From Halogeometricum rufum (GTDB taxonomy: Archaea; Halobacteriota; Halobacteria; Halobacteriales; Haloferacaceae), in NCBI RefSeq assembly GCF_900112175.1, contig NZ_FOYT01000001.1, forward strand, positions 1,798,001 to 1,862,000: 64,000 bases of DNA, given 5' to 3'. Below the pieces are notes generated by a model. The model made no database searches and was not told the origin of the DNA. It saw only the letters and a program-made list of their open reading frames with translations. Within the stretch, counting starts at the first letter, position 1; the number at the start of each line of letters is the position of its first letter. The translations under genes were made by a program, and so were the position numbers. Below are positions 35,915 to 54,373 of this stretch, piece by piece.

Positions 35915-36036
35915 GGGTTGCGGAACGCCCCCGGCACCGTCTGCGGCCGAACGGCGTCCTCGGTCACCCGTCGATGAAGGGGCGTCCCCCGGCTGCCGCC
36001 GCGGCCCCCGCGACGGCCCGCCCGCCGACCGCGGGG

Positions 36037-36043
36037 ATTTTTG
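36037..36043 (+). promoter_or_regulatory. TATA-like box of the GT2/GT4/sulfatase-like operon
   Basis: ATTTTTG is centred 27 nt before the ATG at 36067, giving divergent promoters with aglJ in the 183-bp gap. Confidence 0.4.
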
Positions 36044-36066
36044 TGCTGGTCCGCAAACCGCCGGTC

Positions 36067-37221
36067 ATGCGAACGTACGTCCGCCGATTTCTCGGCGCAA
36101 TCGCGGGGCTCGTCTCGCTGACGGGACTCCCGTATCTGCTGTACCTCGCGCTGTACGCCGTCTGGAAGCCCGAGGGGTCGCCCGCCGACAAGCGGCGGGC
36201 GGAACCGACGGTGAGCATCGTCCTGCCGACGTACAACGAGGAGCGAATCATCGAGAACAAACTCCGCGACGTGGTCTCCCTGGACTACCCGATGGAGAAG
36301 GTCGAAGTCGTCATCGTGGACTCCTCGGACGACGACACGCGCGACATCGTCCGGAACTTCTTCGCCGACCGGGAGGCGCCGACGCTGAACCTCATCGAGG
36401 AGGACGAACGCCGCGGCCTCGCGCCCGCCCTCAACGACGCGTACGCGGCCGCCGAGAACGAGATGGTCGTCAAGACGGACTGCGACTCGAAAGTCGCCGC
36501 CGACGCGCTTCGCGAGGCGGCCGCGAACCTCGCCGACCCCGACGTGGGCGCCGTGACCGGCCGCAACGTGGACGTCCTCGGCGGGAGCGACGTGGAGGAG
36601 GGCTACCGCGGCGTGCAGGCGAAGATTCAGACGCTGGAGTCGCACATCGACTCGACGCTCATCTTCCACGGGCCGTTCTCCGCGTTCGAGAACGACGACA
36701 TCGTCCCCATCGACCCCGACTCCATCGCCGACGACACCGAACTCGCCCTCCTCATCCGCCGCAACGGCAAGCGCGTCCTGTTCGACCCGGACGTGCGCTA
36801 CAAGGAGGCGTCGCACTCGGAGTTCGGCAAGCGCCGCACGCAGAAGGACCGCCGCGCGATGGGCCTGCTGCGACTCCTATTCCAGCACCGCGACGCCGTC
36901 GGCCGGCACGGCCTGTACGGCGGCGTCGTCCTCCCGTTCAACTGGTGGTTCATGGTCGTCTCGCCGTGGCTCCTCGCCGGCGCGGTGACGCTCTCGACGC
37001 TGTTCGGCCTCCTCGTCGCCGGCCCGTTCGGCCTCGCGGTGCCCGCGGCCGTCGGCGCGTTCACCCTCCTCGGGTCTCGCGACCTGTTGGGCCCGCTCCA
37101 GCCGTTCCACGCGGTGTTCGACACGCAGGTGTCGCTGCTGTTCGCCGCGGTAAAACTGCTCCGCGGCGAGGGGTCGGCCGTCTGGGAAGTGGACGAGGAA
37201 CTGCGCGACGTGTACGAGTGA
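36067..37221 (+). CDS. GT2-family membrane glycosyltransferase
   Basis: 384 residues. One membrane helix at about 10-32 is followed by the GT2 domain (VSIVLPTYNEERIIENKL, VVIVDSSDDDT, the acidic KTDCDSKV motif, AVTGRNVDVLGGSD, and an ED-like SIADDTELALLIRRNGKRV with the RRTQKDRRAMG acceptor region). Two to three C-terminal helices (about 285-345) complete it. The architecture is that of processive-type or polyprenyl-linked GT2 enzymes. It begins a three-gene forward operon. It probably extends the lipid-linked glycan; the exact sugar is unknown. Confidence 0.85.
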   Translation: MRTYVRRFLGAIAGLVSLTGLPYLLYLALYAVWKPEGSPADKRRAEPTVSIVLPTYNEERIIENKLRDVVSLDYPMEKVEVVIVDSSDDDTRDIVRNFFADREAPTLNLIEEDERRGLAPALNDAYAAAENEMVVKTDCDSKVAADALREAAANLADPDVGAVTGRNVDVLGGSDVEEGYRGVQAKIQTLESHIDSTLIFHGPFSAFENDDIVPIDPDSIADDTELALLIRRNGKRVLFDPDVRYKEASHSEFGKRRTQKDRRAMGLLRLLFQHRDAVGRHGLYGGVVLPFNWWFMVVSPWLLAGAVTLSTLFGLLVAGPFGLAVPAAVGAFTLLGSRDLLGPLQPFHAVFDTQVSLLFAAVKLLRGEGSAVWEVDEELRDVYE

Positions 37222-37237
37222 GCCGTCGGAGCCACCG

Positions 37238-38308
37238 ATGAAGCTACTGCAGGTGACGCCGCGGTATCCGCCGCAGTCCGGCGGCGTGGAGACGCACGTC
37301 CGCGAGCTAGCCGAACGGCTGGTCGAACGCGGCCACGACGTGACCGTCCTCGCCGCCGACGCGGGCGACGGCGGTTTCCGGCGGGAGCGACGGAACGGCG
37401 TCCGGGTGCGCCGGTATCGGAGCCTCGCGCCCGGCGGCGCGATGCACGTCTGTCCGCAACTCGCGGCGGCGGTCCGCCGTGCCGACGCGGACGTCGTCCA
37501 CGCGCACAACTACCACTCGTTCCCCCTCCTGTTCGCCGCCCTCGGCGCCGGCGACCGGCCGTTCGTCGTCACCACCCACTACCACGGCGCCAGCGCCGAC
37601 TCGGTGCGCGACAGACTGCTCTCCGCGTACCGTCCCGTCGGCGGGTGGGCCGTCCGCCGCGCCGACGCAGCGATAGCGGTCAGCGAGTGGGAGCGGGAGC
37701 GGTTGGCGGCCGACTTCGGCGTCGAGGCGACGGTGGTGCCGAACGGACTGGACGTCGAGCGCTTCGCCGCGGCCGACCCGCCGGACCGCGACCGGCCGTA
37801 TCTCCTCACCGTCGGACGGTTGGAGGAGTACAAAGGCGTCCAGCACGCGATTCGAGCGCTCGCGGACCTCCCCGACTACGACCTGCTCGTCGCCGGGAGC
37901 GGACCGTACCGCGAGGAGTTGGGCCGAATCGCCCGACGGGAGGGCGTCGACGACCGCGTCGAGTTCCTCGGCTACGTGGACGACGGCGCGCTGCCGGGAC
38001 TGTACGCCGGCGCGGCCGTCTACCTGGCGCTGAGCGAGTTCGAGTCCTACGGCATGACCGTCGCCGAGGCCATCGCGGCGGGGACGCCCTGCGTCGTCCG
38101 CGAGTCGGGCGCGCTGGTCGACTGGGCCGGGCGGCGCGGGTGCGTCGGCGTCGACTCCGTCGCGCCGGCCCCCGTCGCGGCCGCCGTCGGGGCGGCGAGC
38201 GATGCGGTCCCGGACGCGTCGGCGCTCCTCGGTTGGGACGACGTCGCCGAGCGCCTCGCGTCGGAGTACAGAGCGCTTTTGTCGTCCGATGAAAAGGGGG
38301 ACGCATGA
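37238..38308 (+). CDS. GT4-family glycosyltransferase
   Basis: A 356-residue GT-B enzyme. The N-terminal Rossmann half contains TPRYPPQSGGVETHVRELAERL and HAHNYHSFPLLFAAL. The C-terminal half has VVPNGLDVERF, LLTVGRLEEYKGVQHAIRAL and the EX7E motif in EFESYGMTVAEAIAAGTP. It has no membrane segment, so it acts at the cytoplasmic face. It follows the GT2 gene after 16 bp and overlaps the sulfatase-like gene by 4 bp (ATGA), which implies a shared product. Confidence 0.9.
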   Translation: MKLLQVTPRYPPQSGGVETHVRELAERLVERGHDVTVLAADAGDGGFRRERRNGVRVRRYRSLAPGGAMHVCPQLAAAVRRADADVVHAHNYHSFPLLFAALGAGDRPFVVTTHYHGASADSVRDRLLSAYRPVGGWAVRRADAAIAVSEWERERLAADFGVEATVVPNGLDVERFAAADPPDRDRPYLLTVGRLEEYKGVQHAIRALADLPDYDLLVAGSGPYREELGRIARREGVDDRVEFLGYVDDGALPGLYAGAAVYLALSEFESYGMTVAEAIAAGTPCVVRESGALVDWAGRRGCVGVDSVAPAPVAAAVGAASDAVPDASALLGWDDVAERLASEYRALLSSDEKGDA

Positions 38309-39669
38309 ACGTCCTGCTCGTCACCGTCGACTCGCTCCGCGCCGACCGCGTCAACGAGGAGGTCATGCCGTTCACCCGGTCGTTCGCCGACGACGCCCTG
38401 GAGTTCACCGAGTGCGTCGCCAACGGCCCGGCGACGCCCGCGTCGTTCCCCGCGATTCACGCGAGCCGCCACTTCGCGAGCATCGAGGGACTGGGCATCC
38501 CCGCCGAGGGCGGCGGCGTCGTCACCCTCGCCGAACGACTGCGCGACGCCGGCTACGCGACGAGCGGGTACACGGACAACCACTTCGCCAGCGGGTCGTA
38601 CCACTTCGACCGCGGGTTCGACCGGATGCACGACGCCAGTAGCACCACCGAGGCGGGGAAGTTGAAGCAGTTCGTCCAGTCGAACCTCGACAAGGACGGC
38701 GCCCTGTTCAAGACGATAGAGCGGGTCTACACCCGCGTCGACGCGCTCTGGTCCACGACGACGGGCAACGAGAGCGAGTACGAACGCGCCGAGTCGCTCA
38801 ACCGACGAACCCTCGACTGGATCGCCGAACGCGACGACGACGAGGACTGGTTCGTCTGGCTCCACTACATGGACGTCCACCACCCCTACGAGGCGCCCGA
38901 CGAGTACCAGCGGCAGTTCCTCGACGACCCCGAGAGCGTCGCCGAGTGCCGCCGCCTCTCCCGGAAGGGGACGCACCACCCCGAGGAGATGACCGAGGAA
39001 GAGTGGGAGACGATACGCCGACTCTACGACGCCGAGTGCGCGTACACGGACGACCAGTTCGAGTCGCTGCTGTCCGAACTGGACGAACGCGGGATTCGCG
39101 ACGACACCGTCGTCTGCCTCACCGCAGACCACGGCGAACTCGTCGGCGAACACGGCCACGCGGGCCACCCGCCGGAGTTCTGGGAGGGCATCGTCCGCGT
39201 GCCGTTCGTCGTGGACGGCGTCGACGAGACGGGGACGGTGGACGGGCAGGTCCGCCTCATCGACCTCCCACCGACGCTGACGGACGCCGTCGGCCTCGAC
39301 GCGACGGCGGCGTGGCAGGGCGAGTCGGCGCTGGCCGTCGCGCGCGGCGACGCCGACGCCCGCGAGTTCGCCTTCGGCGACGTGGGCCGGCAGATAGACT
39401 ACACGCGGAGCTACGTCCGCCGCGCCGACGGCTGGAAGCTGATGCGCCACGGCGACGACGGGGAGTTCCTCTACGACGTCCGCGCGACGCCCGCGGAGGC
39501 CCCCGAGGACAACCGCGTGGACGACTCGCCCCCCGAGTACGCCGACCTGACCGACCGACTGGACGAACATCAAGAGCGGATGGCCGCCCTGCGGAGCGGC
39601 GACGGCGGCGTCGACGAGGACGACGAGATGGTCGAACAGCACCTGCGCGAACTCGGCTACCTGGAGTAG
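38305..39669 (+). CDS. Sulfatase-like hydrolase/transferase (AP superfamily)
   Basis: A 454-residue alkaline-phosphatase-superfamily enzyme. Metal sites are VTVDSLRADR at the N-terminus, HYMDVHHPYEAP, and TADHGELVGEHGHAGH late in the chain. The nucleophile region reads GPATPASFPAI: no Cys/Ser-x-Pro-x-Arg sulfatase signature, so it is unlikely to be a formylglycine sulfatase and more likely a phospho- or phosphoglycerol-type hydrolase or transferase. It has no signal peptide. It ends LRELGYLE, the tail shared by the other five members in this locus. It is coupled by ATGA overlap to the GT4 gene. Confidence 0.85.
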   Translation: MNVLLVTVDSLRADRVNEEVMPFTRSFADDALEFTECVANGPATPASFPAIHASRHFASIEGLGIPAEGGGVVTLAERLRDAGYATSGYTDNHFASGSYHFDRGFDRMHDASSTTEAGKLKQFVQSNLDKDGALFKTIERVYTRVDALWSTTTGNESEYERAESLNRRTLDWIAERDDDEDWFVWLHYMDVHHPYEAPDEYQRQFLDDPESVAECRRLSRKGTHHPEEMTEEEWETIRRLYDAECAYTDDQFESLLSELDERGIRDDTVVCLTADHGELVGEHGHAGHPPEFWEGIVRVPFVVDGVDETGTVDGQVRLIDLPPTLTDAVGLDATAAWQGESALAVARGDADAREFAFGDVGRQIDYTRSYVRRADGWKLMRHGDDGEFLYDVRATPAEAPEDNRVDDSPPEYADLTDRLDEHQERMAALRSGDGGVDEDDEMVEQHLRELGYLE

Positions 39670-39685
39670 CGGCCGCCCGGCGTTC

Positions 39686-41083
39686 TCAGAGGTAACCCAG
39701 GTCTTCGAGTCGCTGGCTCGCGCTCTCGTCCACGTCGATGCGGTCGATGCTCTCCGTCGACTCGTCGAACGAGTCGAGGTAGGCGTCCATCGTCTCCACC
39801 AACTCCTCCCGTCGCGGGTGGTCCGAGAGCGGCGGTCCGGCCTCGAACTCCTCCTCGGTCGTGTCGTACAGTTCGACGGACTCCCCCTGCCGAATCAGCT
39901 TCAGGTCGTCCACGTACAGGGCGTGCTGTCCGGCGGTGTCGTCGCCGTACCGGCTCCAACTCCACGACCCCGAGTAGTCCTGCGTGAGGACGTGCTCGTG
40001 GTCCGCGAAGACGCTCGGCACCTGCGCGTGGTCCGCGTCCGCGCCGACGAGTTCGGCGACGGTGGCGTACAGACCCAGCGTGTTGACGCGTCCGTCCCGG
40101 CGTCCCGGGTCCTCGTCCATCTCCGCCGGCGGCTTGACGACCAACGGGACGCGGACGCCGGGTTCGTACAGGTGACCGTGGCCCATCGCGCCGTACTCCC
40201 CCAGACACTCGCCGTGGTCGGCCGTTATCGCGAACAGCGTGTCGTCCCACTCGCCGCGCTCCTTCAGGTCGTCCACGAGGCGGCCGACGTGCCGGTCGAG
40301 GTAACGTATCGACCCGTCGTACAGGCGTTCGTGGACGTCCATCGAGTCCGCCGGATACTCGCCGTCGGGGTGCTGTTGGACGCCGACGTCGTCCACCCGG
40401 TCCTCGTCGACGAACCGGTAGCGGTCCGCTCGCGGAAGTTTGTAGAGGTGCCGGACGTCCTTCATGTGCGCCTCGCTGTAGTGGGCGTACAGGAACCACG
40501 GCTCCGAGGCGTCGTCGAAGAACCGCGTCGCCGCCCGCGTCGTCTCCGTCGCGCCGTTGTCGTCGTCAGCGCCGAACAACTCGAAGCGGAACTGGAGGCC
40601 GTTGCCGACGTGCGAGAGGAAGTTCCGGTCCAGCGACGCGCGGAGGAAGCTGAGGTAGCGCCGGTGACTCGGGAGGTGTTTGTGCTCGTTGAAGAACTTC
40701 CGGACGTTCATCCCCCGTTCGAACCGGTGTTCGACGGCGTCGAACCGGTCGACGCCCTGGTCGAACCCGAACCCGGGGGTGACGAACGGGTTCGTCGTCA
40801 CCGCGCCCGTCTCGTGGCCGGCGTCCGCCAGCAGTTCCGGCAGGTGGGGCACGTCCACGTCGAGCGTCCCGCGCTGGCCGGCCCGGTGGTCGCCGGGGTA
40901 CAGGCCGGTGAAGAGGGAGGCGGTGGAGTCGAGGGTGACGGGGGCGGGGGAGATGGCGCGTTCGAAGACGACCGACTCGTCGGCGACCGAGTCGATGTTC
41001 GGCGTCGTCGGACGGGAGTGGCCGTAGCAGGACAGATTGGCCGCTCTCACCGCGTCCAGGACGACGATGCAGACGTTGACCAT
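39686..41083 (-). CDS. Sulfatase-like hydrolase/transferase (AP superfamily)
   Basis: 465 residues with metal motifs VVLDAVRAANLSCYGHSRPTTPNID, YAHYSEAHM and ITADHGECLGEYGAMGHGHLY. The nucleophile region is SPAPVTLDSTASLFTG, a Thr/Ser type without the C/S-x-P-x-R motif. The C-terminus is QRLEDLGYL. It has no signal peptide or membrane segment. It is a single transcription unit on the minus strand with its own TATA box and a 15-bp palindrome between the box and the start, which suggests separate regulation from the genes around it. Confidence 0.85.
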   Translation of the reverse strand: MVNVCIVVLDAVRAANLSCYGHSRPTTPNIDSVADESVVFERAISPAPVTLDSTASLFTGLYPGDHRAGQRGTLDVDVPHLPELLADAGHETGAVTTNPFVTPGFGFDQGVDRFDAVEHRFERGMNVRKFFNEHKHLPSHRRYLSFLRASLDRNFLSHVGNGLQFRFELFGADDDNGATETTRAATRFFDDASEPWFLYAHYSEAHMKDVRHLYKLPRADRYRFVDEDRVDDVGVQQHPDGEYPADSMDVHERLYDGSIRYLDRHVGRLVDDLKERGEWDDTLFAITADHGECLGEYGAMGHGHLYEPGVRVPLVVKPPAEMDEDPGRRDGRVNTLGLYATVAELVGADADHAQVPSVFADHEHVLTQDYSGSWSWSRYGDDTAGQHALYVDDLKLIRQGESVELYDTTEEEFEAGPPLSDHPRREELVETMDAYLDSFDESTESIDRIDVDESASQRLEDLGYL

Positions 41084-41095
41084 TTAAATACTGCC

Positions 41096-41110
41096 TTCGG
41101 CGACGCCGAA
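41096..41110. promoter_or_regulatory. Palindrome between TATA box and start of the 39686-41083 gene
   Basis: TTCGGCG-A-CGCCGAA is a perfect 7-bp inverted repeat with a single central base. It is placed just downstream of the TATA box at 41113-41119 where a repressor would block initiation. Confidence 0.45.
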
Positions 41111-41112
41111 CA

Positions 41113-41119
41113 AATATAT
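41113..41119 (-). promoter_or_regulatory. TATA box of the 39686-41083 sulfatase-like gene
   Basis: ATATATT on the minus strand is centred about 33 nt from the ATG at 41083. Confidence 0.5.
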
Positions 41120-41184
41120 GTCGGTTCCGCGGGGGAGGCGTCCGAGCGCGGGCGATGCGCCGCCGGTGACCCCGGGCGCTACTG

Positions 41185-42534
41185 CTACTCCAGATAGCCG
41201 AGTTCCGAGAGTCGGTCTCTGGTCGCGTCGTCGACGTCCATCGTCTCCTCGCCGTACACGCCGGCGTCGACGGAGTCGAGTGCCGCCCGGAGGTCCTCGG
41301 GCACGTCCTCGCGCGGGTCTGACTCGCCGGGGTCCGCCGAGAGGTCGAACCAGACCGCCTCGTCGAGGCCGGGGACGACCACGAGTTTCGCGTCGTCCAC
41401 CCAGACGGCGCGCTGGTCGTAGCCGTACGCCGTCTCCTCGCAGAGGACCGGCCGGGACGGGTCCGGAGCGCCGAGTTCGGCCCCCGTCGTCGCCGGCGCG
41501 TCCGCCACGTCGAGGGCGTCGAGGACCGTCGGAACCACGTCCACCAGCGAGACGCGTTCGTCGGACGTTCCGGACGGCAGGGTCGGCGCGTCGACCCACA
41601 GGGGCACGCGGGCGACTTCTTCGAGGACGCTGTGTCCGTGGTCGGTGGCGTAGAACCCGCGCGGGTCGTCGTTGAGGCGGCGTTCCAGCGACGGATGCTC
41701 CCAGAACGCCTCGCCGTGGTCGCCGCAGACGACGACCACGGTGTCGTCGGGGACGGCGTCGAGGAGGCGCGCCAGTTCGTCGTCGGCCCCGCGGACCGAC
41801 GCGTCGTACGCGCGCCGTCGCGCGTCGGCGTACGCCTCGAACCCCTCGCCCGACGCCTCCTCGCGGAAGCGCCAGTCTTCGAGGCCCTCGACGTCCGGCA
41901 CGTCGAACGTCTCGCGGTGGTCCGCGGGCACGTCGAGGGGCGCGTGCGGGTCGCCGAGGTGGAGGTGGAGGAACCACCGGTCCCGGCCGTCCACCCAGTC
42001 GAGCGCTCTCGACACCTGGTCGGCGGCCGGCGTGTAGCGCATGTCGACCGTCTGGAAGCGGTCGCCCGTCGCCTTCGCCGCCATCGGAATCGCGGTCAGC
42101 ATCGCCGTGTCGTAGCCGGCCGATTCGAGGAGTTCCGGAATCGTCGGCACCGACGCGGTGGGTCGCGCGGGGAACTGCTCTGACGAGAGGTCCCGGTACT
42201 CCGTCTCGAACCGGCCGCCGTGTTCGTGCGGGTAGCGACCCGACAGCAACGACGGGACCGAGGGGAACGTCCACGGACTCGGCGCGACGGCGTGCGAGAA
42301 CGCCGCGCCGTCGAACGCGTCCAGCGTCGGCGTCGTCGACCGGTCGTGTCCGAACGCCGAGACGTGGTCCGCGCGGAGGCAGTCGACGACGACGAACAGC
42401 ACGTTCCGCGGGTCCCCGACCGTCGCGTCGTACGAGACGTCCCTGTCCCGGCGTTCCAGCCAGTGTTTGACCTTGTGGCGCGTGTTGACGAACGCGTTGT
42501 TCAGGCGGGGGAAGCGCTGCAGCGGGTTGCTCAT
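41185..42534 (-). CDS. Sulfatase-like hydrolase/transferase (AP superfamily)
   Basis: 449 residues. After a basic N-terminal helix (about 1-35; KVKHWLERRDRD) come the metal motif FVVVDCLRADHVSAFGHDRSTTPTLD, the nucleophile region SPWTFPSVPSLLSG (Thr), HLHLGDPHAPLDVP and VVCGDHGEAFWEHP. It ends DRLSELGYLE. The reading frame stays open far upstream but this is antisense to other genes; the real ATG at 42534 overlaps the stop of the next upstream gene (ATGA). It is the last gene of the GT4 - AP - AP minus-strand run. The Thr nucleophile again argues against classical sulfate-ester cleavage. Confidence 0.85.
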   Translation of the reverse strand: MSNPLQRFPRLNNAFVNTRHKVKHWLERRDRDVSYDATVGDPRNVLFVVVDCLRADHVSAFGHDRSTTPTLDAFDGAAFSHAVAPSPWTFPSVPSLLSGRYPHEHGGRFETEYRDLSSEQFPARPTASVPTIPELLESAGYDTAMLTAIPMAAKATGDRFQTVDMRYTPAADQVSRALDWVDGRDRWFLHLHLGDPHAPLDVPADHRETFDVPDVEGLEDWRFREEASGEGFEAYADARRRAYDASVRGADDELARLLDAVPDDTVVVVCGDHGEAFWEHPSLERRLNDDPRGFYATDHGHSVLEEVARVPLWVDAPTLPSGTSDERVSLVDVVPTVLDALDVADAPATTGAELGAPDPSRPVLCEETAYGYDQRAVWVDDAKLVVVPGLDEAVWFDLSADPGESDPREDVPEDLRAALDSVDAGVYGEETMDVDDATRDRLSELGYLE

Positions 42535-44084
42535 TCGACGTACCCCAGGCTCTTCAGCGTCTCCTCGACGTCTCGCTGGTCGGCCCGGTTGTCGCCGGTG
42601 CCGACGGCCGTCGCCGGTCCGGTCTCGACCGCGCGGTCGGCGGCGTCGCCCGCCAGCACGGCGTCCACCACGTCGCCGTCGACGTCCGCGGGAACGGGGG
42701 CACCGAGGTAGTGCAGAACCGTCGGCGCGAGGTCGTACAGCGTCAGGTCCACGGCGTCGTCGGCCGTCGCCACGTCCTCGCCCCACGCGGCGAACACGCC
42801 GGTGCGCCGGTGGGTCGCCAGCCACTCCAACCGCTCGCCGAACACCTCGCCGCCGAGCGATTCGGGCGCGTCCACGCCGGTGGTGTACTCGACGACGAGG
42901 TCCGGCGACCGCGCCATCTCGCCGGTGTAGACGTCCGCGGGGCGGTGGACCGCGGCGGCGACCGGTCGGCCGTCGGGCGTCTCCAGCGACTCGATGGCCC
43001 CCGCGAGTTCGGAGAGGTACTCCTCCTTGGCCGCCGCGGTGTCGAACGCGCGGTCGTTGACGTAGACGGGACCGCGGCCGAGCGAGATGGCCTTCGTCTC
43101 GTCCCAGTCGATGGGGGCGTCCTGGACGGAGACGCGGCCGCTCTCGCTGGGGAACAGTCGCTGCACCGACTCCGGCACCAGCGCCTGCGCGAGGTTGACG
43201 AGTCCGAGGCGGCCGACGAGCGACTTCAGGCGTTCCTCCGTGAGTCCGACGCTCGCGAGTGCGCCGCGCTTGGAGTCCTCGCCGACGACGAGTTCGCCCC
43301 GGTCGGCCAGCCACTGGTTGACGAGGAACGTCTCGTCTATCTCGACGAAGCCGTGATCGCTCATGAGGAAGACGGCCTCGGTGTCGTCTCGGTCGAGGAG
43401 TTCGCCGAGTCTGTCGTCGATACGTTCGTACAGGCGGCGCACGTCGTCGGGACGGTCCCAGAGGCGGTGCTGGACCGTGTCGGTGACGAAGACGGTGGTG
43501 TGGACGAGTTCGCAGTCCTTCTCGGTCGCCAGCCACTCGGCCGCGTCGAACCGCTGGTCGGCCAGCGTCCGCGCCTCGGCTATCAACTCGTCGGGGTCGG
43601 CCTCGCTCAGGACGAGGTCGGGTTTCGTCCGGTAGTTCGGCACCGCGTCGAGCAGTTCCGACTTCAGCGACGACGGCGCGGTGAACTCGCCGCGCTCGGA
43701 GGCGGGACTGCCGGCGACGGTCAACACGCCCTCGGCCGTCCGCGGCGGGTGCGTGGTCGGCATGTTGACGGTGGCCGCCCGCCGGTCCGCGGCGGCGAGG
43801 ACGTCCCAGTACTCGCGCGACCGGAAGTCCGAGGAGTCGTTCGTCGTTATCTCGCAGTCGTCGCGCTCGAACGCGAACCACTCGTACACGCCGAGTTTGC
43901 CGGGGGTCTTGCCGGTCGAGTAGCACTTCCACGCGGGAAAAGTGATGGGCGGGAGCGTGCTCTCCAGGTCGCCGACGACGCCCTCGGCGGTCAACCGTTC
44001 GAACGCCGGGAGGTGCCCGTCGTCCATCCAGCGTCGGAGGAGTGACCAGTCGGCACCGTCGAGGCCGACGACGTAGACGGTCAT
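42531..44084 (-). CDS. Type I phosphodiesterase/nucleotide-pyrophosphatase-like enzyme
   Basis: 517 residues, alkaline-phosphatase superfamily. The N-terminus VYVVGLDGADWSLLRRWM carries the first metal aspartate, then LPPITFPAWKCYSTGKTPGKLGVYEWF with a Thr nucleophile, typical of NPP/phosphonoacetate-type phosphodiesterases. FVTDTVQHRLWD and LMSDHGFVEID follow. The C-terminus is EETLKSLGYVE. It has no signal peptide. Its TATA box overlaps the stop codon of the GT4 gene upstream, so it can be transcribed alone as well as with that gene. It is a close relative of the plus-strand gene at 46291. Confidence 0.85.
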   Translation of the reverse strand: MTVYVVGLDGADWSLLRRWMDDGHLPAFERLTAEGVVGDLESTLPPITFPAWKCYSTGKTPGKLGVYEWFAFERDDCEITTNDSSDFRSREYWDVLAAADRRAATVNMPTTHPPRTAEGVLTVAGSPASERGEFTAPSSLKSELLDAVPNYRTKPDLVLSEADPDELIAEARTLADQRFDAAEWLATEKDCELVHTTVFVTDTVQHRLWDRPDDVRRLYERIDDRLGELLDRDDTEAVFLMSDHGFVEIDETFLVNQWLADRGELVVGEDSKRGALASVGLTEERLKSLVGRLGLVNLAQALVPESVQRLFPSESGRVSVQDAPIDWDETKAISLGRGPVYVNDRAFDTAAAKEEYLSELAGAIESLETPDGRPVAAAVHRPADVYTGEMARSPDLVVEYTTGVDAPESLGGEVFGERLEWLATHRRTGVFAAWGEDVATADDAVDLTLYDLAPTVLHYLGAPVPADVDGDVVDAVLAGDAADRAVETGPATAVGTGDNRADQRDVEETLKSLGYVE

Positions 44085-44106
44085 ACTGGGTCACTCGGCG
44101 CTGTGG

Positions 44107-44114
44107 CCTTAAAG
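44107..44114 (-). promoter_or_regulatory. TATA box overlapping the GT4 stop codon
   Basis: On the minus strand CTTTAAGG contains the TAA stop of the GT4 gene and is centred about 26 nt before the ATG at 44084, an internal promoter built on a stop codon. Confidence 0.5.
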
Positions 44115-45143
44115 TGCTTCGAGTACGCGGCGGAACGCCTCGGCGAACGCGGCCCTCCGGGAGTCGGCGTCGAACGTCGACCCGCGTTCGCGGGCGCGGT
44201 CCGACAGTCGCCGCCGTTCTGCGGGCGCGCGGTCGAAGTACGTGGCGACGCCCTCGGCGATGGACGCCGGCGTGGGCGAGACGACCAAGGAGGGGTCGAT
44301 GCGGCGCGCCTCCGACCGGGTGCCGGTCGTGTCGGTGACGACGGGCGGGAGGCCGGCGCGCATCGCCTCGAGGACGCTCACGGGGAACGTGTCCATCCGG
44401 GACGGTTGGACGTAGACGGACGCCGGCGCGAGGGCGTCCGAGAGGTCCTCGACGTAGCCGCGGACGGTGACGCCCTCGGTCCGTTCGTACGACTCGGGGT
44501 GGCCGCCGCCGACGACGTGGAGTTCGGCCTCGGGGTGTCGCTCCCGGACCCGCGGCCACGCCTCGACGAGCAGGTCCACGCCCTTGTACCGACTCGGCCG
44601 GCCGACGGTGACCGCCACTTTGTCGTCCAGCGCGGGCGAGACCCCGCCCAGCGCGTCGTACACGTCCGGTTGGACGTACGGGTGCGCGACTTCGATGGGG
44701 GCGTCGTCGCCGACGACGGGACGGGTGAAGTCGGCGGCGAACTCGGAGACGGCGACGACGCCGTCGACGTAGCGGTGCCCGACGGCCCGAATCGCCGGCG
44801 TCCCGAACCGGCCGACCAGCGACTTCAGCCCCGAACTCCCCTCGAAGTCGTCGCGGCCGAGGCTGTACAGCCCGTGGTCCGCACAGAGGTAGACGAGGCG
44901 CGACCCGCGGACGACGCGGTTGACGAGGGCGGCGTAGAGCGGTCGAGAGCCCTCGACGAGGTAGACGTCGTAGGCGGGCGCGCGGAGGCCGTTCACCACG
45001 TCCGCCGGGACGCCGTCGCCGACCCAGTCGGGCGCGAACCCCCGGAAGTCGACGAGGTCGGCGCCGACGGCCTCGGCGAATCCCGCGTGGGCCGGGTGCG
45101 GGTCCTGATACAGCATCGCGACGCGGGCGGAGTCGAGGTCCAT
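44109..45143 (-). CDS. GT4-family glycosyltransferase
   Basis: A 344-residue GT-B enzyme. The N-terminal half has YQDPHPAHAGFAEAVGADLVDF and YLVEGSRPLYAAL; the C-terminal half has VAVTVGRPSRYKGVDLLVEAWPRV, LHVVGGGHPESYER and the donor-binding SRMDTFPVSVLEAMRAGLPPVV. There is no membrane segment. It probably adds one sugar to the lipid-linked glycan on the cytoplasmic face. It is the first gene of the minus-strand run that includes two AP-superfamily genes. Confidence 0.88.
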   Translation of the reverse strand: MDLDSARVAMLYQDPHPAHAGFAEAVGADLVDFRGFAPDWVGDGVPADVVNGLRAPAYDVYLVEGSRPLYAALVNRVVRGSRLVYLCADHGLYSLGRDDFEGSSGLKSLVGRFGTPAIRAVGHRYVDGVVAVSEFAADFTRPVVGDDAPIEVAHPYVQPDVYDALGGVSPALDDKVAVTVGRPSRYKGVDLLVEAWPRVRERHPEAELHVVGGGHPESYERTEGVTVRGYVEDLSDALAPASVYVQPSRMDTFPVSVLEAMRAGLPPVVTDTTGTRSEARRIDPSLVVSPTPASIAEGVATYFDRAPAERRRLSDRARERGSTFDADSRRAAFAEAFRRVLEAL

Positions 45144-45248
45144 CGTCGGGAACCGTCTCGCACGGGGAGCAAAAGTGAACCGGAGTGTCCCGCCCGCGAC
45201 GCGGCGTCGCCCAGCGCCCGTCGCCGCGTCCGGTTCGGCTATCGACAG

Positions 45249-45255
45249 GTATATC
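45249..45255 (+). promoter_or_regulatory. TATA box of the 45286 gene
   Basis: GTATATC is centred about 34 nt before the ATG at 45286. The oppositely directed GT4 gene starts about 110 bp to the left. Confidence 0.5.
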
Positions 45256-45285
45256 TCCGTCGTGCGGGGTACTCCCCACCGAGAG

Positions 45286-46203
45286 ATGAGCCTCGGGAAC
45301 TGGCTGGACCGCGCGGAGATGCAGGTAGACCAGTACGGCCCGGTCGCGGGGTCGAAGGCGGCCCTCGGGTCGCTGGTGTCGGGGGTCTCGCACCGACTCA
45401 GCGGGCTGTACCCGCGCGGCGGGACGAACGTCTACGACGACGAGTGGGACCTCCTCCTGGTCCTCGACGCCTGCCGCGTGGACGCCCTGGAGGCCGTCGC
45501 GCCCGAGTACGACTTCGTCCCGAACGCGGTCCCCAGCATCCGGTCGGTCGCCCCCAACTCCCACCTCTGGATGGAGCGGACGTTCGCGGCGCGGCCCGAG
45601 GCGGTGGCCGACACGACGTACGTCACCGCCAACGGCCACGTCGAGGACTTCGACGGCGACCAGTTCGCCCGGTTGGAGAAGGTGTACGAGCACGGCTTCG
45701 ACCGGGAGTTGGAGACGATTCCGCCGCGAGCGGTGACGGACGCGACGGTTTCGGCGCTCCGGTCGGACGCGACGCCCCGAACCATCGCCCACTACATGCA
45801 GCCGCACACTCCCTATCGCTCGCTCGGACTGGACGGCCTCGGCGGCGGCGACGACAAGGCGTTCCGCGAGACGGTGTGGGACTGGATTCTCGCCGGGAAA
45901 CTCTCCCGAGACGAGGCGTGGGAGCACTACCTCGACAACCTCCGGTGGGTGCTGGACGACGTGGAACTCCTCCTCCGGAGCGTCGACGCCGACCGGGTGG
46001 TCGTCACCGCGGACCACGGCGAGGCGTACGGCGAGTGGGGCGCGTACGGCCACTCGGCGACGGGCGAGTTCGACGGACTCAGGCGGGTTCCGTGGGTTGT
46101 GACCGACGCCACCGACGACGGCGAGTACGAACCCACGGCCGCCGAGTCCGACGACGAACAGGTCGACGTGGACGAACAGCTGAAGTACCTCGGCTACGTC
46201 TGA
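45286..46203 (+). CDS. Short sulfatase-like AP-superfamily protein
   Basis: 305 residues, clearly shorter than its paralogues (about 450-530). It keeps LLVLDACRVDALEAV (first metal Asp), IAHYMQPHTPY and VVTADHGEAYGEWGAYGHS, and it ends DEQLKYLGYV. An N-terminal amphipathic helix (LGNWLDRAEMQVDQYG) precedes the core. The nucleophile loop is reduced (SIRSVAPNSHLW), so activity is uncertain. Start at 45286 chosen because of the TATA box and because upstream residues are basic. Probably the same biological role as the other AP members of the locus. Confidence 0.8.
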   Translation: MSLGNWLDRAEMQVDQYGPVAGSKAALGSLVSGVSHRLSGLYPRGGTNVYDDEWDLLLVLDACRVDALEAVAPEYDFVPNAVPSIRSVAPNSHLWMERTFAARPEAVADTTYVTANGHVEDFDGDQFARLEKVYEHGFDRELETIPPRAVTDATVSALRSDATPRTIAHYMQPHTPYRSLGLDGLGGGDDKAFRETVWDWILAGKLSRDEAWEHYLDNLRWVLDDVELLLRSVDADRVVVTADHGEAYGEWGAYGHSATGEFDGLRRVPWVVTDATDDGEYEPTAAESDDEQVDVDEQLKYLGYV

Positions 46204-46261
46204 GCGGCCGGTTTCGGCTTCACCTCCGGACTCTGACTCGCTCGCACCGAGACCCGGTCCG

Positions 46262-46268
46262 TTTTTAT
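46262..46268 (+). promoter_or_regulatory. TATA box of the 46291 operon
   Basis: TTTTTAT is centred about 26 nt before the ATG at 46291, a leaderless start for the AP-enzyme/flippase pair. Confidence 0.55.
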
Positions 46269-46290
46269 GCTGACTGTCGAATGAGTCGCC

Positions 46291-47892
46291 ATGCGCGCGC
46301 TACTGGTCGGACTGGACGCGGCGTGCCTCCCCGTCCTCGAACCGCTGTTCGAGGCGGACGCCGTGCCGACGCTTCAGTCGTTGTTCGACGACGGCGTCGC
46401 CGGTCCGTTAGAATCGCAGATTCCGCCGTGGACGGCGAGCGCCTGGCCCTCGATGTACACCGGGAAGAACCCGGGGAAACACGGCGTCTTCGACTTCCTC
46501 TCGTTCGACGGCTACGACTGGGACATCGTCAACGGGACGGACCTGAAGGCCCGGACCGTCTGGGACTACCTCCACGAGGCGGGCCTGACGAGCGTCGTCG
46601 TGAACGCACCCGTCACCGACCCCCCACGTGACATCGACGGCGCGGTGGTTCCCGGCTACCTCGCCCACAACGACCCGCGGTGTCACCCCGAGGGACTGCT
46701 GGACGAACTCCGCGAGGAACTCGGCGGCTATCAGGTGTACGCGAACCGCGAGACGGACGAGACGGTGGACGACGCGGCGAAGTTCCGCGAGTACGTCCGC
46801 TTGACCGAGTCGCGCGGCGAGGCGTTCAGGTACCTCGCCGACCGGTTCGACCCCGACTTCGGCTTCGTCCAGTTTCAGAAGACCGACGCCGTCTTCCACG
46901 ACTTCCCCGGCGACTTAGAGAAGGTCCGGGAGATATACGAGACGGTCGACGCCGAACTCGAACGGATACTCGACGAGTTCGACCCCGACAACGTCGTCGT
47001 CGCCTCCGACCACGGCATGGGCGAGTACGACGGGTACGAGGTCCGCGTGAACGAACTACTCCGCCGCGGGGAGTACACCGAGACGACGACGGACGGCCAC
47101 GGCGTCCCCTCGTGGTTCCAGATAAAGGACGAACAGTTGGTCGAGGACGACACGGACGGCGAGTCCGACCGCCTCCAGCGACTCGCCCGGGCCGCCGGGA
47201 AGGCCGGGCTGACGTACCAGCGCGGGAAGGCGATTCTCGAACGTCTCGGGCTCGCCGAGTTCGTCGGCCGACACGTCCCCGTCAGCGCCGTCTTCGCCGC
47301 CAGCGAGACGGTCGACTTCGCCGAGTCGGTGGCGTACCTCCGCTCGTCCTCGGAACTCGGCGTCCGACTCAACGTCGCGGGCCGCGACCCCGACGGGAAG
47401 ATTCCGCCCGCGGAGTACGAGTCGGTCAGGTCCGACCTCGTCGAGTTCCTGTCGGCGCAGGAGACGCCCGACGGCGACCCCGTCTTCGAGGACGTCGTCC
47501 CCCGCGAGGAGTACATCCACGGTCCCTTCGCGGACGACGCGGTGGACGTGCTCTGCGTGCCCGCGGACTTCGAGCACTCGCTGTCGATGATCGTCGACGA
47601 ACCGTTCGTCGCACCGGAACCGTGGAACCACAAGCTGGAGGGGGTCGTCGCCCTCCGCGGCGACGACGTCGATTCGGCGGCGTCGCTCGACGGCGCGCAC
47701 CTGTTCGACGTGGCCCCGACGCTGCTCTCGCTGTTCGGCGTCGCGCCCGCGACGGACATGGACGGCGAGTCGCTCGGTCCCGTGACCGCGGTGCCGCCCG
47801 AGTCGTACGACGAGTTCGAGCCGCGGACGCGCGTCCGGACGGACGACGACGACGTGACGGAGCGGCTGGCCGACCTGGGATACCTCGAATGA
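46291..47892 (+). CDS. Alkaline-phosphatase-family phosphodiesterase-like enzyme
   Basis: 533 residues. LLVGLDAACLPVLEPLF holds the first metal aspartate. The nucleophile region PPWTASAWPSMYTGKNPGKHGVFDF has a Thr at the active position, as in NPP-type and phosphoglycerate-mutase-like members. FVQFQKTDAVFHDF and VVASDHGMGEYDGY give the remaining ligands. It ends TERLADLGYLE. The stop overlaps the ATG of the flippase gene (ATGA), so this phosphatase-like enzyme is made together with the lipid-linked glycan flippase. Leaderless start. Confidence 0.87.
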   Translation: MRALLVGLDAACLPVLEPLFEADAVPTLQSLFDDGVAGPLESQIPPWTASAWPSMYTGKNPGKHGVFDFLSFDGYDWDIVNGTDLKARTVWDYLHEAGLTSVVVNAPVTDPPRDIDGAVVPGYLAHNDPRCHPEGLLDELREELGGYQVYANRETDETVDDAAKFREYVRLTESRGEAFRYLADRFDPDFGFVQFQKTDAVFHDFPGDLEKVREIYETVDAELERILDEFDPDNVVVASDHGMGEYDGYEVRVNELLRRGEYTETTTDGHGVPSWFQIKDEQLVEDDTDGESDRLQRLARAAGKAGLTYQRGKAILERLGLAEFVGRHVPVSAVFAASETVDFAESVAYLRSSSELGVRLNVAGRDPDGKIPPAEYESVRSDLVEFLSAQETPDGDPVFEDVVPREEYIHGPFADDAVDVLCVPADFEHSLSMIVDEPFVAPEPWNHKLEGVVALRGDDVDSAASLDGAHLFDVAPTLLSLFGVAPATDMDGESLGPVTAVPPESYDEFEPRTRVRTDDDDVTERLADLGYLE

Positions 47893-49328
47893 GCCGGGAC
47901 ACGGCGTCGTTGAGTCTGGGTCGCGAGGCGCTCATCGGCTTCGTCGCGAAGATACTCCTCGCGGGGATGGGGTTCGCCGGCATCGTCGTCTACTACCGGT
48001 TCCTCGGCCCCGAGACGCTCGGCATCTACTACACCGTCCTCGCGGCGGCGAACGTCGTCGCCCAACTCGTCGGCGGGTTCGCGTCGGCACTGCAGAAGCG
48101 CGTGAGCGAGAAGCAGACCGACCTCGCCGAGTACATCGGCGTCGGCTTCGTCGTCTACGTCACCGTCGTCGGCGCGGGCGGCGTCCTCGCCTACGCCCTC
48201 GAGTCCTCCCTCTCGAACTTCTTCCTCTCCAGTCGCCACCTCTGGGGCGGCGTCGGCATCTTCGCCAGCCTCAGCCTGTTCACGGTGACGAACCGCATCT
48301 ACTCGGGCGTCGGCAAGCCCGGGCTGGCGGTCTGGACCGACGCCGCGCGGAGCGTCCTCACCCTCGCGCTGCAGGTCGGCCTGCTCCTCGTCGGATTCCG
48401 CGAGTTCGGCCTCATCTACGGCTACGTCGGGGCGACGCTGGTCTGCGCGCTGGGCGTCCTCGTCCTCATCGGCGTGCGGCCGGTGATACCGTCGAGACGA
48501 GCGCTCGCGCGCACGTGGGAGTTCGCCAAGTGGAGCGTCCCCTCCGGCTTCGCGAGCAACCTGTACGGCCGCATCGACGTGCTCATCCTCGCGAGCCTCG
48601 TCGGCAGCACGGCCGTCGGGCTGTACGAACCCGCCCACCGACTCACGGTGCCGGCGACGTTCGTCGCCACCAGCGTGGGCGTCTCGCTCACGGTGAAGGC
48701 GAGCGGTCTCAGTTCCATCGGCGAGAGCGTCGAACACGACCTGCGCAACGCCGTCTCCTACACGATTCTCCTGGCGGCCCCGCTGTTCTTCGGTGCCCTC
48801 GCCATGCCGGAGGCGCTGATGCGGACCATCTACGGCCCGTCCGCGACGGCCGGCGCGATGGCGCTCGTCGGCCTCGCGCTGTTTCAGGTGTTCAACTCGT
48901 TCCAGCTCCCGTTCGACAAACTCGTCTCGGGCATCGACCGACCCGAGATAAATCTGGGCGTCAGCGTCGTCACCATCAGCATCGACGTCGTGTTGGCCGT
49001 CTTCCTCGCGCGGGCGTACGGGCTGGAGGGCGTCGTCGCCGCCACGATTCTCTCCGAAGTCGTCCGGGTCGTCATCTTCCAGGGCATCCTCTACCGCATG
49101 TTCGGCTCGTTCGTGCTGACGCGGCCGGTGATAGAGCAGCTAGCCAGCGCGGTCGTGATGTTCCTCGCCGTCGAGGGCGTCCTCCTCGCGTTCTCCATCC
49201 GGAGCGTGCTCGACCTGTTGCTGGTCGTCGGGCTGGGCGGCGTCGTCTACTTCGGCTGCCTGCTGGCCGTCAGCCCGCACTTCAGACTCACGCTCGACAA
49301 CGTGCTGGGCGACTTCGTCCCGAACTGA
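47889..49328 (+). CDS. aglR: Wzx/AglR-like polysaccharide flippase
   Basis: A 479-residue membrane protein with about 12-14 helices of the MATE/polysaccharide-transport (RfbX/Wzx) family. GREALIGFVAKILLAGMGFAGIV starts the first helix; YYRFLGPETLGIYYT and WSVPSGFASNLYGRIDVLIL are typical. In Haloferax volcanii AglR, at the equivalent place in the cluster, contributes to translocation of the dolichol-phosphate-mannose intermediate. The start overlaps the AP-family gene by 4 bp. The symbol is by position and family; other Wzx roles are possible. Confidence 0.82.
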   Translation: MSRDTASLSLGREALIGFVAKILLAGMGFAGIVVYYRFLGPETLGIYYTVLAAANVVAQLVGGFASALQKRVSEKQTDLAEYIGVGFVVYVTVVGAGGVLAYALESSLSNFFLSSRHLWGGVGIFASLSLFTVTNRIYSGVGKPGLAVWTDAARSVLTLALQVGLLLVGFREFGLIYGYVGATLVCALGVLVLIGVRPVIPSRRALARTWEFAKWSVPSGFASNLYGRIDVLILASLVGSTAVGLYEPAHRLTVPATFVATSVGVSLTVKASGLSSIGESVEHDLRNAVSYTILLAAPLFFGALAMPEALMRTIYGPSATAGAMALVGLALFQVFNSFQLPFDKLVSGIDRPEINLGVSVVTISIDVVLAVFLARAYGLEGVVAATILSEVVRVVIFQGILYRMFGSFVLTRPVIEQLASAVVMFLAVEGVLLAFSIRSVLDLLLVVGLGGVVYFGCLLAVSPHFRLTLDNVLGDFVPN

Positions 49329-49383
49329 CGGCCCCGTCGCCGCCCTCGCCGTCCGTCCGTTTCAGGTCGCCGTCGCACCCCTC

Positions 49384-50718
49384 TCAGGTCGCCGTCGCGC
49401 GCTCCGAAGCGAGCCACAGACTGAGCAGGTAGAGCAATCCGACGGCGTACACCGCGGGCTGGAGGAGTTTCAACAGCGGTTCGCCGTCGAGCATCCCGGC
49501 GAGGTTCGGGTGTCCGTTGCCCACCAGCACCTCCATCGCGTAGGTGTGGGCGTGCGCGAGGAGGAACGACAGACCGAGGAGGGCGAACGGCCACCCGTCG
49601 GCCCGGTAGCAGTGGACGCCGAGGACGACGAACGCCGCGAGGGCGAGTCCGAGGTCGATGAGCGTCGTGCTCTGCAGGAGAGTGAACAGCATGACGATGG
49701 AGAGCGCGAAGAGAGGCACGTCGTAGTCGGACCGGCCACGGACGTAGCGGGCCCACACCCACGCGATGGGGAGGACCGAGAGGAGTCGAGGTACTATCGC
49801 GACCCCGCCGAGGAACGGGAACGGCCGAATCGCCTCGACGCTCCACTCGGTGATGGGTTCGAGTCCGCCGGACTCCGCGAGTGCCTCCGAGGCGACGATG
49901 GCGTAGTAGTGCGCCGTCGTCTCGACGCCGAACGCGAAGACGGAGAGGGCGTTCGCGGCGGCGAAGGCGGCGAGGAAGCCGACCACGCCGCGCCAGCGAC
50001 GGTCCGCGGGGGAGATGAAGACGGCCAGCGGCGACATCCAGTACGGCTTCAGAATGGTCGGGACGACGAGGGCCGCACCGCCCAGTCCGTCGTCCGACCG
50101 GCGATACGCCCACCACGCGACGGCGGTGCAGAGGTACGCGAACGGCGTCACCTGCCCGACTTTGAAGTTCGCCACCATCGGCGCGAACCCGACGGACGCA
50201 GCCGAGAGCCCGAGTAGCGCCCGCCGAGAGAGGTCGAATCCCACGCTGGAACTCTCGGCGTCGAGCAGGAGGTACGTCCCGCCGGCCGTCGCGAGGAGCG
50301 AGAGGCCGAACAGCAGGTACTTGAACGCGACGTAGCCGAACAGCGAGATGGCGGCGAAGAAGTAGTAGGTGACCGGGAGGTAGTGGTACTCCTGGACGTT
50401 GTCCGGTTGCCACGTGTTGTAGAGGGGCCCACCGCTCCAGACGCGCACGACCATGTTGTAGAACGCGTCGGCGTCCGTCGGACTCTCGATGGCGAACCGG
50501 TAGTCGGCGTCGGACGGGACGACGATGTCGCCGTCGGGTCGCGTCTCGGTGTCCGTGTACTCGATGTCGCCCCGTTCGGTCGACTTCAGCACGCCCGCGC
50601 CCGCCAGCGCGCCGACGAGGACGACGTTCGCGACGCAGGCGAGGACGCAGAGCCAGAGGACGGTTCGACGAGACGGGAGAGCGGGCGAGAGGGCACTCTC
50701 GTACCACGACTGAGTCAT
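49384..50718 (-). CDS. GT87-like membrane glycosyltransferase (possible AglS counterpart)
   Basis: 444 residues with about 9-11 membrane helices. The first (about 16-37) is followed by a large extracellular loop (about 40-100: YRFAIESPTDADAFYNMVVRVWSGG), then the helical core with PMVANFKVGQVTPFAYLCTAVAWW, a lysine-containing VPTILKPYWMSPL and IGWAVR-like hydrophobic repeats. This is the polyprenyl-phosphate-sugar-dependent GT-C/GT87 (DUF2029) pattern. It acts on the outer face. In Haloferax AglS adds the final mannose from dolichyl-phosphate-mannose, and this gene sits in a comparable place, so an AglS-like role is plausible but unproven. ATG 50718 preferred over an upstream TTG. Confidence 0.75.
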   Translation of the reverse strand: MTQSWYESALSPALPSRRTVLWLCVLACVANVVLVGALAGAGVLKSTERGDIEYTDTETRPDGDIVVPSDADYRFAIESPTDADAFYNMVVRVWSGGPLYNTWQPDNVQEYHYLPVTYYFFAAISLFGYVAFKYLLFGLSLLATAGGTYLLLDAESSSVGFDLSRRALLGLSAASVGFAPMVANFKVGQVTPFAYLCTAVAWWAYRRSDDGLGGAALVVPTILKPYWMSPLAVFISPADRRWRGVVGFLAAFAAANALSVFAFGVETTAHYYAIVASEALAESGGLEPITEWSVEAIRPFPFLGGVAIVPRLLSVLPIAWVWARYVRGRSDYDVPLFALSIVMLFTLLQSTTLIDLGLALAAFVVLGVHCYRADGWPFALLGLSFLLAHAHTYAMEVLVGNGHPNLAGMLDGEPLLKLLQPAVYAVGLLYLLSLWLASERATAT

Positions 50719-50747
50719 TCGATTACTGTCTGGATTCGACAAGGCCT

Positions 50748-50754
50748 ACATAAG
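50748..50754 (-). promoter_or_regulatory. TATA-like box of the GT87-like gene
   Basis: CTTATGT on the minus strand is centred about 33 nt from the ATG at 50718. Confidence 0.35.
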
Positions 50755-50872
50755 CGTGCTGAAAGGAGAAGCTGCGTCCGGAGGCGTCTCGGCGTCACGA
50801 ACGCGAGACGGCGCTGGGTTCGAGGGACTCGGCGCCTCGGCCGTTCTGTGGCGATTGGCAGTCATCATAAGG

Positions 50873-50879
50873 CTTATGC
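50873..50879 (+). promoter_or_regulatory. TATA box of aglB
   Basis: CTTATGC is centred 28 nt before the aglB ATG at 50904, which implies a leaderless aglB mRNA. Confidence 0.5.
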
Positions 50880-50903
50880 GCGTTTTGCTCTCTCGTCAAA
50901 GCG

Positions 50904-54155: not shown

Positions 54156-54191
54156 GCACCGCGGCCCGATTTCGGCCGCTCTCTCCCGTTT

Positions 54192-54249
54192 CGTCCGTTC
54201 TCTCTGATTTCTGTCGTGCGCTCCGATTCCGTCCGTTCTCTCTGATTTC
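54192..54249. repeat. 20-bp direct repeat between aglB and aglM
   Basis: An identical 20-base sequence occurs at 54192-54211 and 54230-54249 (spacing 38 bp), in the gap between the convergent genes. It is pyrimidine-rich with TTT tracts and could aid termination of aglB. Confidence 0.6.
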
Positions 54250-54373
54250 GCCCCTCTCGCCGCCCGTTTCCGCGACACGCACGTTCGACTCGGCAGAGCG
54301 GCGTCGCTGTCGGGGTCGGAGCGACGCCGGAGGACGAAGCGGAGAACGGAGAGCGGAGCGTCGGCGGTCCCGG

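Follow-up and report, generated by a model that had tools for sequence, protein, structure and literature searches.

Alkaline phosphatase-fold proteins with a common C-terminal tail in an N-glycosylation locus of Halogeometricum rufum: candidate enzymes of glycan sulfation

Overview

The stretch of Halogeometricum rufum DNA analysed here (the window; 64,000 nucleotides from contig C1 of the 4.19 Mb haloarchaeal genome designated G000) contains an N-glycosylation (agl) locus at 35974–55666. Six genes specifying proteins of the alkaline phosphatase (AP) superfamily, designated AP1 to AP6, share this locus with four glycosyltransferases, a flippase, the oligosaccharyltransferase AglB and a UDP-glucose dehydrogenase. 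The six proteins are very likely enzymes which decorate the sugars of the glycan. Kinship to studied proteins, together with the locus, tips the balance towards sulfate as the group transferred by AP5 and AP1–AP3. Locus and a C-terminal tail place AP4 and AP6 in this set as well; they may carry sulfate or phosphate, or carry out phosphodiester chemistry.

Relationship to studied proteins of Halobacterium salinarum

Deletion tests published in 2025 covered three members of the AP superfamily, VNG1056C, VNG1057C and VNG1063H, from the aglB cluster of Halobacterium salinarum (PMC11980604). Most sulfation of iduronic and glucuronic acids disappeared with the loss of VNG1056C (Agl30), found in the membrane fraction, and of the soluble VNG1057C (Agl31). 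Agl30 is needed for that of iduronic acid and Agl31 for that of the terminal glucuronic acid, and each protein put a group interpreted as sulfate onto the glycan of Haloferax volcanii (PMC11980604). Glycoproteins bearing sulfate were recognized in archaea decades ago, but it was only in 2025 that the enzymes were named. This paper was the only one found on Agl30 and Agl31; the terms "PAPS" (3'-phosphoadenosine 5'-phosphosulfate), "phosphoadenosine", "formylglycine", "threonine" and "active site" never occur in its text, and a literature search on AP-fold sulfotransferases or PAPS in haloarchaea returned nothing further to the point.

Among the genomes examined G018 is likely H. salinarum (100% bacteriorhodopsin identity). 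Three AP genes lie beside glycosyltransferases on its contig C17, with AglB on a separate contig of the same draft. The first product, a 326 amino acid protein which is likely Agl30, matches AP5 at 37.8% identity across 283 residues, possesses the same catalytic motifs, and has a hydrophobic stretch at residues 21–39 that matches the report for VNG1056C. Its 459 amino acid PF00884-type neighbour, likely Agl31, carries a Ser in the motif WSVSS and is 27.7% identical to AP2, while a 475 amino acid protein, likely VNG1063H, has a Thr nucleophile and is 28.0% identical to AP2. Both show 25–28% identity to AP1–AP3, the VNG1063H-like protein scoring higher against all three. By eye, all three G018 proteins have Ser or Thr in the nucleophile region, and they end in the same LGY tail as the window proteins. 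In Natronococcus jeotgali (L081) relatives of the likely Agl30 and Agl31 are adjacent, at 70% and 63% identity.

AP5 appears to be a protein of the Agl30 kind, with homology over most of its length, the catalytic residues retained, the LGY tail and a cluster anchored by aglB. Agl30 is membrane-bound with a clear hydrophobic stretch, whereas the model of AP5 shows two N-terminal helices which are less hydrophobic by eye. AP1–AP3 would likewise be of the Agl31 kind, being PF00884-type proteins of an agl locus, soluble in so far as neither a signal nor a membrane stretch can be seen, and equipped with a Ser/Thr nucleophile (Ser in Agl31) and the tail.

A second AP5-type gene of G018 (L034:11374-12288) stands alone, outside the agl cluster. 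Its 303 amino acid product is 40.6% identical to AP5, bears the tail VDDRLEQLGYKT, and could act elsewhere, for example on a membrane lipid. VNG1281H of H. salinarum was once proposed as a sulfotransferase (PMC4335974); no PF00685 or PF13469 match was found in G018. In Hfx. volcanii, Agl7, which may or may not be an AP protein, is said to contribute to sulfation (PMC3871713, PMC5867893, PMC12240190).

Fold and active sites

An initial annotation had proposed six AP-superfamily reading frames, and this was confirmed by Pfam for five of them and by the predicted fold for AP5. AP1 (38305–39669, plus strand; 454 amino acids), AP2 (39686–41083, minus; 465 amino acids) and AP3 (41185–42534, minus, with its start at 42534; 449 amino acids) match the Sulfatase family PF00884 with E-values of 2.5e-35, 4e-41 and 2.3e-36. 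AP4 (42531–44084, minus; 517 amino acids) and AP6 (46291–47892, plus; 533 amino acids) match PF01663, of the nucleotide pyrophosphatase/phosphodiesterase (NPP) type (E=5e-36, 125.4 bits and E=1.7e-34, 120.4 bits, respectively; curated cut-off 23). AP5 (45286–46203, plus; 305 amino acids) has no Pfam match, and its predicted structure (predicted local distance difference test score, pLDDT, 90.6) is a minimal AP-fold core. Using VIA-align, the best-scoring solved fold was the phosphoethanolamine transferase EptA (4kav; Z=15.4, root-mean-square deviation [rmsd] 2.9, 198 aligned), the alignment taking in the motif DHGExLGExGxYxH, and an arylsulfatase scored 14.9 (rmsd 3.7, 210 aligned). The closest structures to AP2 are sulfatases, with 6hhm at Z=40.6 (rmsd 2.9, 379 residues). 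None of the six proteins matches the sulfotransferase domains PF00685 or PF13469 in Pfam.

As the initial annotation had it, the sulfatase formylglycine motif (C/S-x-P/A-x-R) is absent from the nucleophile site in all six proteins, and five have Thr in its place: AP1 (Thr43, GPATPAS), AP2 (Thr50, APVTLDS), AP3 (Thr89, SPWTFPS), AP4 (PPITFPA) and AP6 (PPWTASA). The other residues read for AP2 are His206, Asp289, His290 and His302. The same annotation described the loop of AP5 as reduced; this was ruled out by the fit of Ser92, which lies after a strand and at the start of a helix, like Thr50 in the AP2 model. Of the 64 aligned sequences, 58 have Ser at this position and the other 6 have Thr, and AP5 is therefore not degenerate. 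The assignment of Ser92 rests on model position and conservation, because the profile-profile alignment of AP5 to the PF00884 family covers the C-terminal half only. Asp61, Asp243, His244 and His256 are conserved in 64/64 sequences and His174 in 63/64.

In formylglycine sulfatases the first metal-binding strand carries a pair of Asp residues (or Asp-Gln). In AP1 to AP6 the pairs are D-S, D-A, D-C, D-G, D-A and D-A, the second Asp being replaced in every case. By motif, AP4 (DTVQH, SDHG, HRRTGVF) and AP6 (DAVFH, SDHG, HKLEGVV) appear to retain the full two-metal set of NPP enzymes (D, T, DxxxH, DH, H); the DxxxH and HxxxG(V/F) motifs were not found in AP1–AP3 or AP5. No signal peptide is visible by eye in any of the six, in line with the initial annotation, and the cytoplasmic placement which it proposed was judged right. 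AP1, AP2, AP4 and AP6 begin directly at the first strand, and AP3 and AP5 have some 45–50 additional N-terminal residues in which no twin-arginine translocation motif was seen by eye.

The C-terminal tail

Each of the six proteins ends with a tail of the form V-x-x-(R/Q)-L-x-x-L-G-Y-(L/V/R/K)-(E). It is QHLRELGYLE in AP1 (39637–39666, plus strand, the 10 codons preceding the stop), QRLEDLGYL in AP2 (39689–39718, minus), DRLSELGYLE in AP3 (41188–41217, minus), ETLKSLGYVE in AP4 (42534–42563, minus), EQLKYLGYV in AP5 (46171–46200, plus) and ERLADLGYLE in AP6 (47860–47889, plus). Among 78 named haloarchaeal loci, gathered through AP5, the tail is present in 131 of 146 AP-type neighbours (92/96 AP5-type, 33/44 PF00884-type and 6/6 PF01663-type) against 2 of 906 other proteins. 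It occurs in none of 197 glycosyltransferases, flippases, AglB proteins and UDP-glucose dehydrogenases; the two cases come from the remaining 709 proteins, and one of them looks AP-like by its start. In all 131 tailed neighbours 1 to 3 residues follow LGY. The tail was not found in 11 of the 44 PF00884-type and 4 of the 96 AP5-type neighbours, some of which perhaps result from wrong gene ends. Bacterial sulfatases with the formylglycine motif lack it in 5/5 cases, a small sample of one kind. In alignment A2 the tail is invariant because the sequences were selected for it, and this alignment is given no weight here.

In the model of AP5 the tail lies behind an acidic linker and has low confidence (pLDDT about 55–64); in that of AP2 it forms a short helix (pLDDT about 77). 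Thirteen relatives of AP5 were found on viral contigs, with a tail in five, none in six and two unreadable. The six without it (L134, L135, L138, L139, L141 and L144) stop right after the VPW motif, with neither linker nor tail, and the tail therefore looks like an added module. No paper on the LGY tail was found. We infer that it is a docking peptide, and being shared it offers a direct handle on whatever may bind it.

Sulfate activation genes and sulfotransferases

One draw of 242 Halobacteria genomes was searched for AP5, adenosine 5'-phosphosulfate (APS) kinase, ATP sulfurylase (PF01747), CysD and the sulfotransferase families PF00685 and PF13469. AP5-like proteins are present in 224 genomes, and full-length APS kinase, counted at a best E-value below 1e-30 (a cut-off chosen in this analysis), in 16. 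The APS kinase profile scores above its cut-off in all 242 genomes; outside the 16, the best E-value is no better than 2.9e-7, and the matches listed are mostly partial and reach at most 31.5 bits. PF01747 was found in six genomes. CysD was found above its cut-off (396.6 bits) in none of the 242, and the weak partial matches in 238 of them, at no more than 46.9 bits, are probably other PP-loop proteins.

PF00685 occurs in 10 genomes and PF13469 in 11, together 14 genomes, of which 13 have APS kinase; G183, with PF13469, is the sole exception to this pairing. PF00685 is found in 10/16 genomes with APS kinase versus 0/226 without (Fisher P=5e-14), whereas AP5 shows no such association (15/16 versus 209/226, P=1). 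Since shared descent makes the genomes non-independent, these P values serve as a guide only. In six genomes (G021, G078, G095, G180, G220 and G240) the genes for ATP sulfurylase, APS kinase and PF00685 share a contig and, as judged by coordinates, fall within about 20 kb of each other; here the canonical PAPS system forms a cassette, and a rare one.

In the window genome the APS kinase match is weak (best E=2.2e-4), there is no PF01747 match, CysD remains below the cut-off, and neither PF00685 nor PF13469 was found. Neither this genome nor G018 is among the 16 with APS kinase, the 6 with ATP sulfurylase or the 14 with a sulfotransferase. It follows that in these two organisms either APS or PAPS comes from unknown enzymes or the AP proteins use another donor.

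Proposed function and alternatives

In the proposed scheme cytoplasmic AP-fold group-transfer enzymes would decorate the dolichol-phosphate-linked N-glycan ahead of flipping, with AP5 (the Agl30 kind) and AP1–AP3 (the Agl31/VNG1063H kind) putting sulfate on sugar hydroxyls, each at its own position. The Ser or Thr at the formylglycine position, beside metals held by Asp and His, would attack the sulfur of the donor, and the resulting sulfo-enzyme intermediate would be resolved by a sugar hydroxyl in place of water. The LGY tail, behind its flexible acidic linker, would let all of the enzymes bind a single shared partner. PAPS from the known pathway is an improbable donor, because searches for the established APS and PAPS genes did not find them. 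The fold, the nucleophile residues, the locus, the tail and the missing activation genes are observed here, and the effect of deletion was shown elsewhere for two H. salinarum relatives; for the window proteins the chemistry, the covalent intermediate, the donor and the role of the tail are inferred. A donor other than PAPS combined with a covalent Ser/Thr route appears attractive. The likeness of the AP proteins to PAPS-dependent sulfotransferases would lie only in the outcome, sulfate on a sugar hydroxyl; PF00685 and PF13469 are different families.

A bolder version, which we regard as speculative and would not expect to hold in full, is that most haloarchaea sulfate independently of the known PAPS pathway by means of AP-fold sulfo-Ser/Thr transferases, with a different source of sulfate (a sulfated lipid of archaea, for instance, comparable to the phospholipid used by EptA) and the LGY docking tail on three separate AP lineages. 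Archaetidylglycerosulfate is a lipid of haloarchaea. If AP-fold sulfation without the known PAPS genes is true, it represents a second chemical solution for sulfate transfer, and many haloarchaeal "sulfatase" annotations mean the opposite of the label.

Several points weigh against sulfate transfer by these proteins. Sequence identity with the studied proteins reaches a modest 38% in AP5 and about 25–28% in AP1–AP3, the assignment of the names Agl30, Agl31 and VNG1063H to the G018 genes is likely but not certain, and AP1–AP3 resemble VNG1063H at least as much as Agl31. Deletion of VNG1063H left sulfation unaffected, and some sulfation persisted in the double deletion of VNG1056C and VNG1057C (PMC11980604). 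The silent VNG1063H cautions that membership of such a cluster need not mean N-glycan sulfation, at least in the conditions of that study. The published masses, with two decimals at charge 2–3, are not enough on their own to distinguish sulfate and phosphate. These groups differ by about 0.0095 Da, and the identification of sulfate in H. salinarum reportedly rests on older work. The model-based scores of AP5 against EptA and arylsulfatase amount to a tie and do not discriminate between transfer of sulfate and of phosphate, and a non-homologous pathway making APS and PAPS is a possibility.

The initial annotation preferred phospho chemistry, and did not consider an AP fold that puts sulfate on. 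On its view phosphotransferases or phosphodiesterases would either place phospho-groups such as phosphoglycerol on the lipid-linked glycan or process nucleotide sugars; Thr would become phosphorylated on the way, as it does in EptA, LtaS and NPP enzymes. The Thr/Ser nucleophile and the D/H/DH/H set do agree with EptA-type enzymes (EptA/MCR and LtaS are AP-fold transferases with a Thr nucleophile), AP4 and AP6 are PF01663 proteins with the full NPP-like motif set, and a gain of 80 Da can be phosphate. The structural comparison with LtaS/MdoB which it suggested agrees with EptA being the top match of AP5, but sulfatases equal it in score and AP2 is nearest to sulfatases. Moreover, EptA, LtaS and their kin are membrane-anchored by transmembrane domains and move a phospho group onto lipids outside the membrane, whereas AP1–AP6 show no such domain by eye and look cytoplasmic. 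The sole studied relatives found, Agl30 and Agl31, are needed for sulfation. Action on the lipid-linked glycan, as opposed to ordinary removal of sulfate, stands from that annotation; phospho-group chemistry as the principal explanation appears doubtful, and would be most plausible for AP4 and AP6. A division of labour, in which AP5 and AP1–AP3 add sulfate and AP4 and AP6 catalyse a distinct phosphodiester or pyrophosphate reaction, for instance hydrolysis of a nucleotide sugar or of a nucleotide left over from sulfate transfer, fits the presence of two distinct Pfam families and the motifs confined to AP4 and AP6; set against the tail, operon links and locus common to all six, and with no studied relative of AP4 or AP6 found, it seems less likely still.

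Ordinary sulfatases, or relics of them, removing sulfate from glycans are highly improbable, despite the Pfam name Sulfatase on three of the six proteins and the sulfatases nearest to AP2, which share its fold (6hhm). This candidate was ruled out on nucleophile, second Asp, cellular location and locus: compared with S1 formylglycine sulfatases the AP proteins lack the formylglycine residue, the second Asp and an export signal, they belong to a biosynthetic locus, and the reaction proposed for them runs the opposite way. The single formylglycine-type protein among the 12 PF00884 proteins of the window genome looks different and has no tail. Deletion of the relatives lowers sulfation rather than raising it (PMC11980604).

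AP-type genes in other loci

Clusters of AP-type genes in agl loci are common in haloarchaea. Within the stretch covered, a glycosyltransferase, flippase or AglB accompanies AP5 in 60 of the 78 loci, AglB in 22 and a PF00884-type gene in 33 (raw counts, without a random-locus control). At the nucleophile the 44 PF00884-type neighbours have Thr in 36 cases, Ser in 5 and Cys in none, 3 being unreadable; one contains a stretch resembling the formylglycine motif elsewhere in its sequence. Near AglB in Haloferax prahovense (L057) there are two AP5-type and four PF00884-type genes, with GT4 and GT2 glycosyltransferases 62–64% identical to those of the window, and the H. salinarum cluster has three AP genes. 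The view of the initial annotation that six such genes form an unusual concentration is ruled out by L057, which carries an equal number. Haloterrigena sp. H1 (L127) has AP1, AP4, AP6, both GT4 and the GT2 in common with the window at 63–69%. Relatives of AP6 occur on 58 plasmid records, all 40 matches listed being from haloarchaea. The AP clusters of agl loci look like exchanged and reshuffled cassettes, which fits variable surface glycans.

Ten of the 12 PF00884 proteins of the window genome have Thr or Ser at the nucleophile position, nine of these ten with the tail. The formylglycine-type protein, with the motif CTSAR, is specified on another contig. In another PF00884-type protein (L037:5744-7036) the nucleophile is replaced by Pro and the DHG metal site by TSG, and the tail is missing; it is likely a pseudo-enzyme. 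Contig C6 of this genome (244,647 bases, plasmid-sized; L036, L037, L039 and L040) holds more AP-type genes, most of them tailed, beside glycosyltransferases and a flippase, and this region is probably a second glycan locus.

Organization of the locus

The order of genes in the window locus is GT2, GT4, AP1, AP2, AP3, AP4, GT4, AP5, AP6, flippase, GT87, AglB and UDP-glucose dehydrogenase. The GT2 glycosyltransferase (35974–37221, plus strand; PF00535/PF13641) is followed by the first GT4 enzyme, GT4a (37238–38308, plus; PF13439/PF00534), and the second, GT4b (44109–45143, minus; PF13692/PF00534), separates AP4 from AP5. Downstream of AP6 are a flippase-like polysaccharide biosynthesis protein (47889–49328, plus; PF13440/PF01943), a GT87 membrane glycosyltransferase (49384–50742, minus; PF09594), the 1083 amino acid AglB oligosaccharyltransferase (50904–54155, plus; PF02516, PF22627, PF18079) and an AglM-like UDP-glucose/GDP-mannose dehydrogenase, a source of uronic acid (54374–55666, minus; PF03721/PF00984/PF03720). 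ATGA overlaps join GT4a to AP1, AP4 to AP3 and AP6 to the flippase. The translational coupling claimed in the initial annotation holds for these pairs, but AP2 and AP5 are uncoupled.

Adjoining the locus, at 55817–56851, is a PF04018 gene resembling undecaprenyl-phosphate translocases. A similar gene, judged from the start of its sequence, is found beside AglB in L042 and L057, and the window gene may serve in recycling of the dolichol phosphate carrier.

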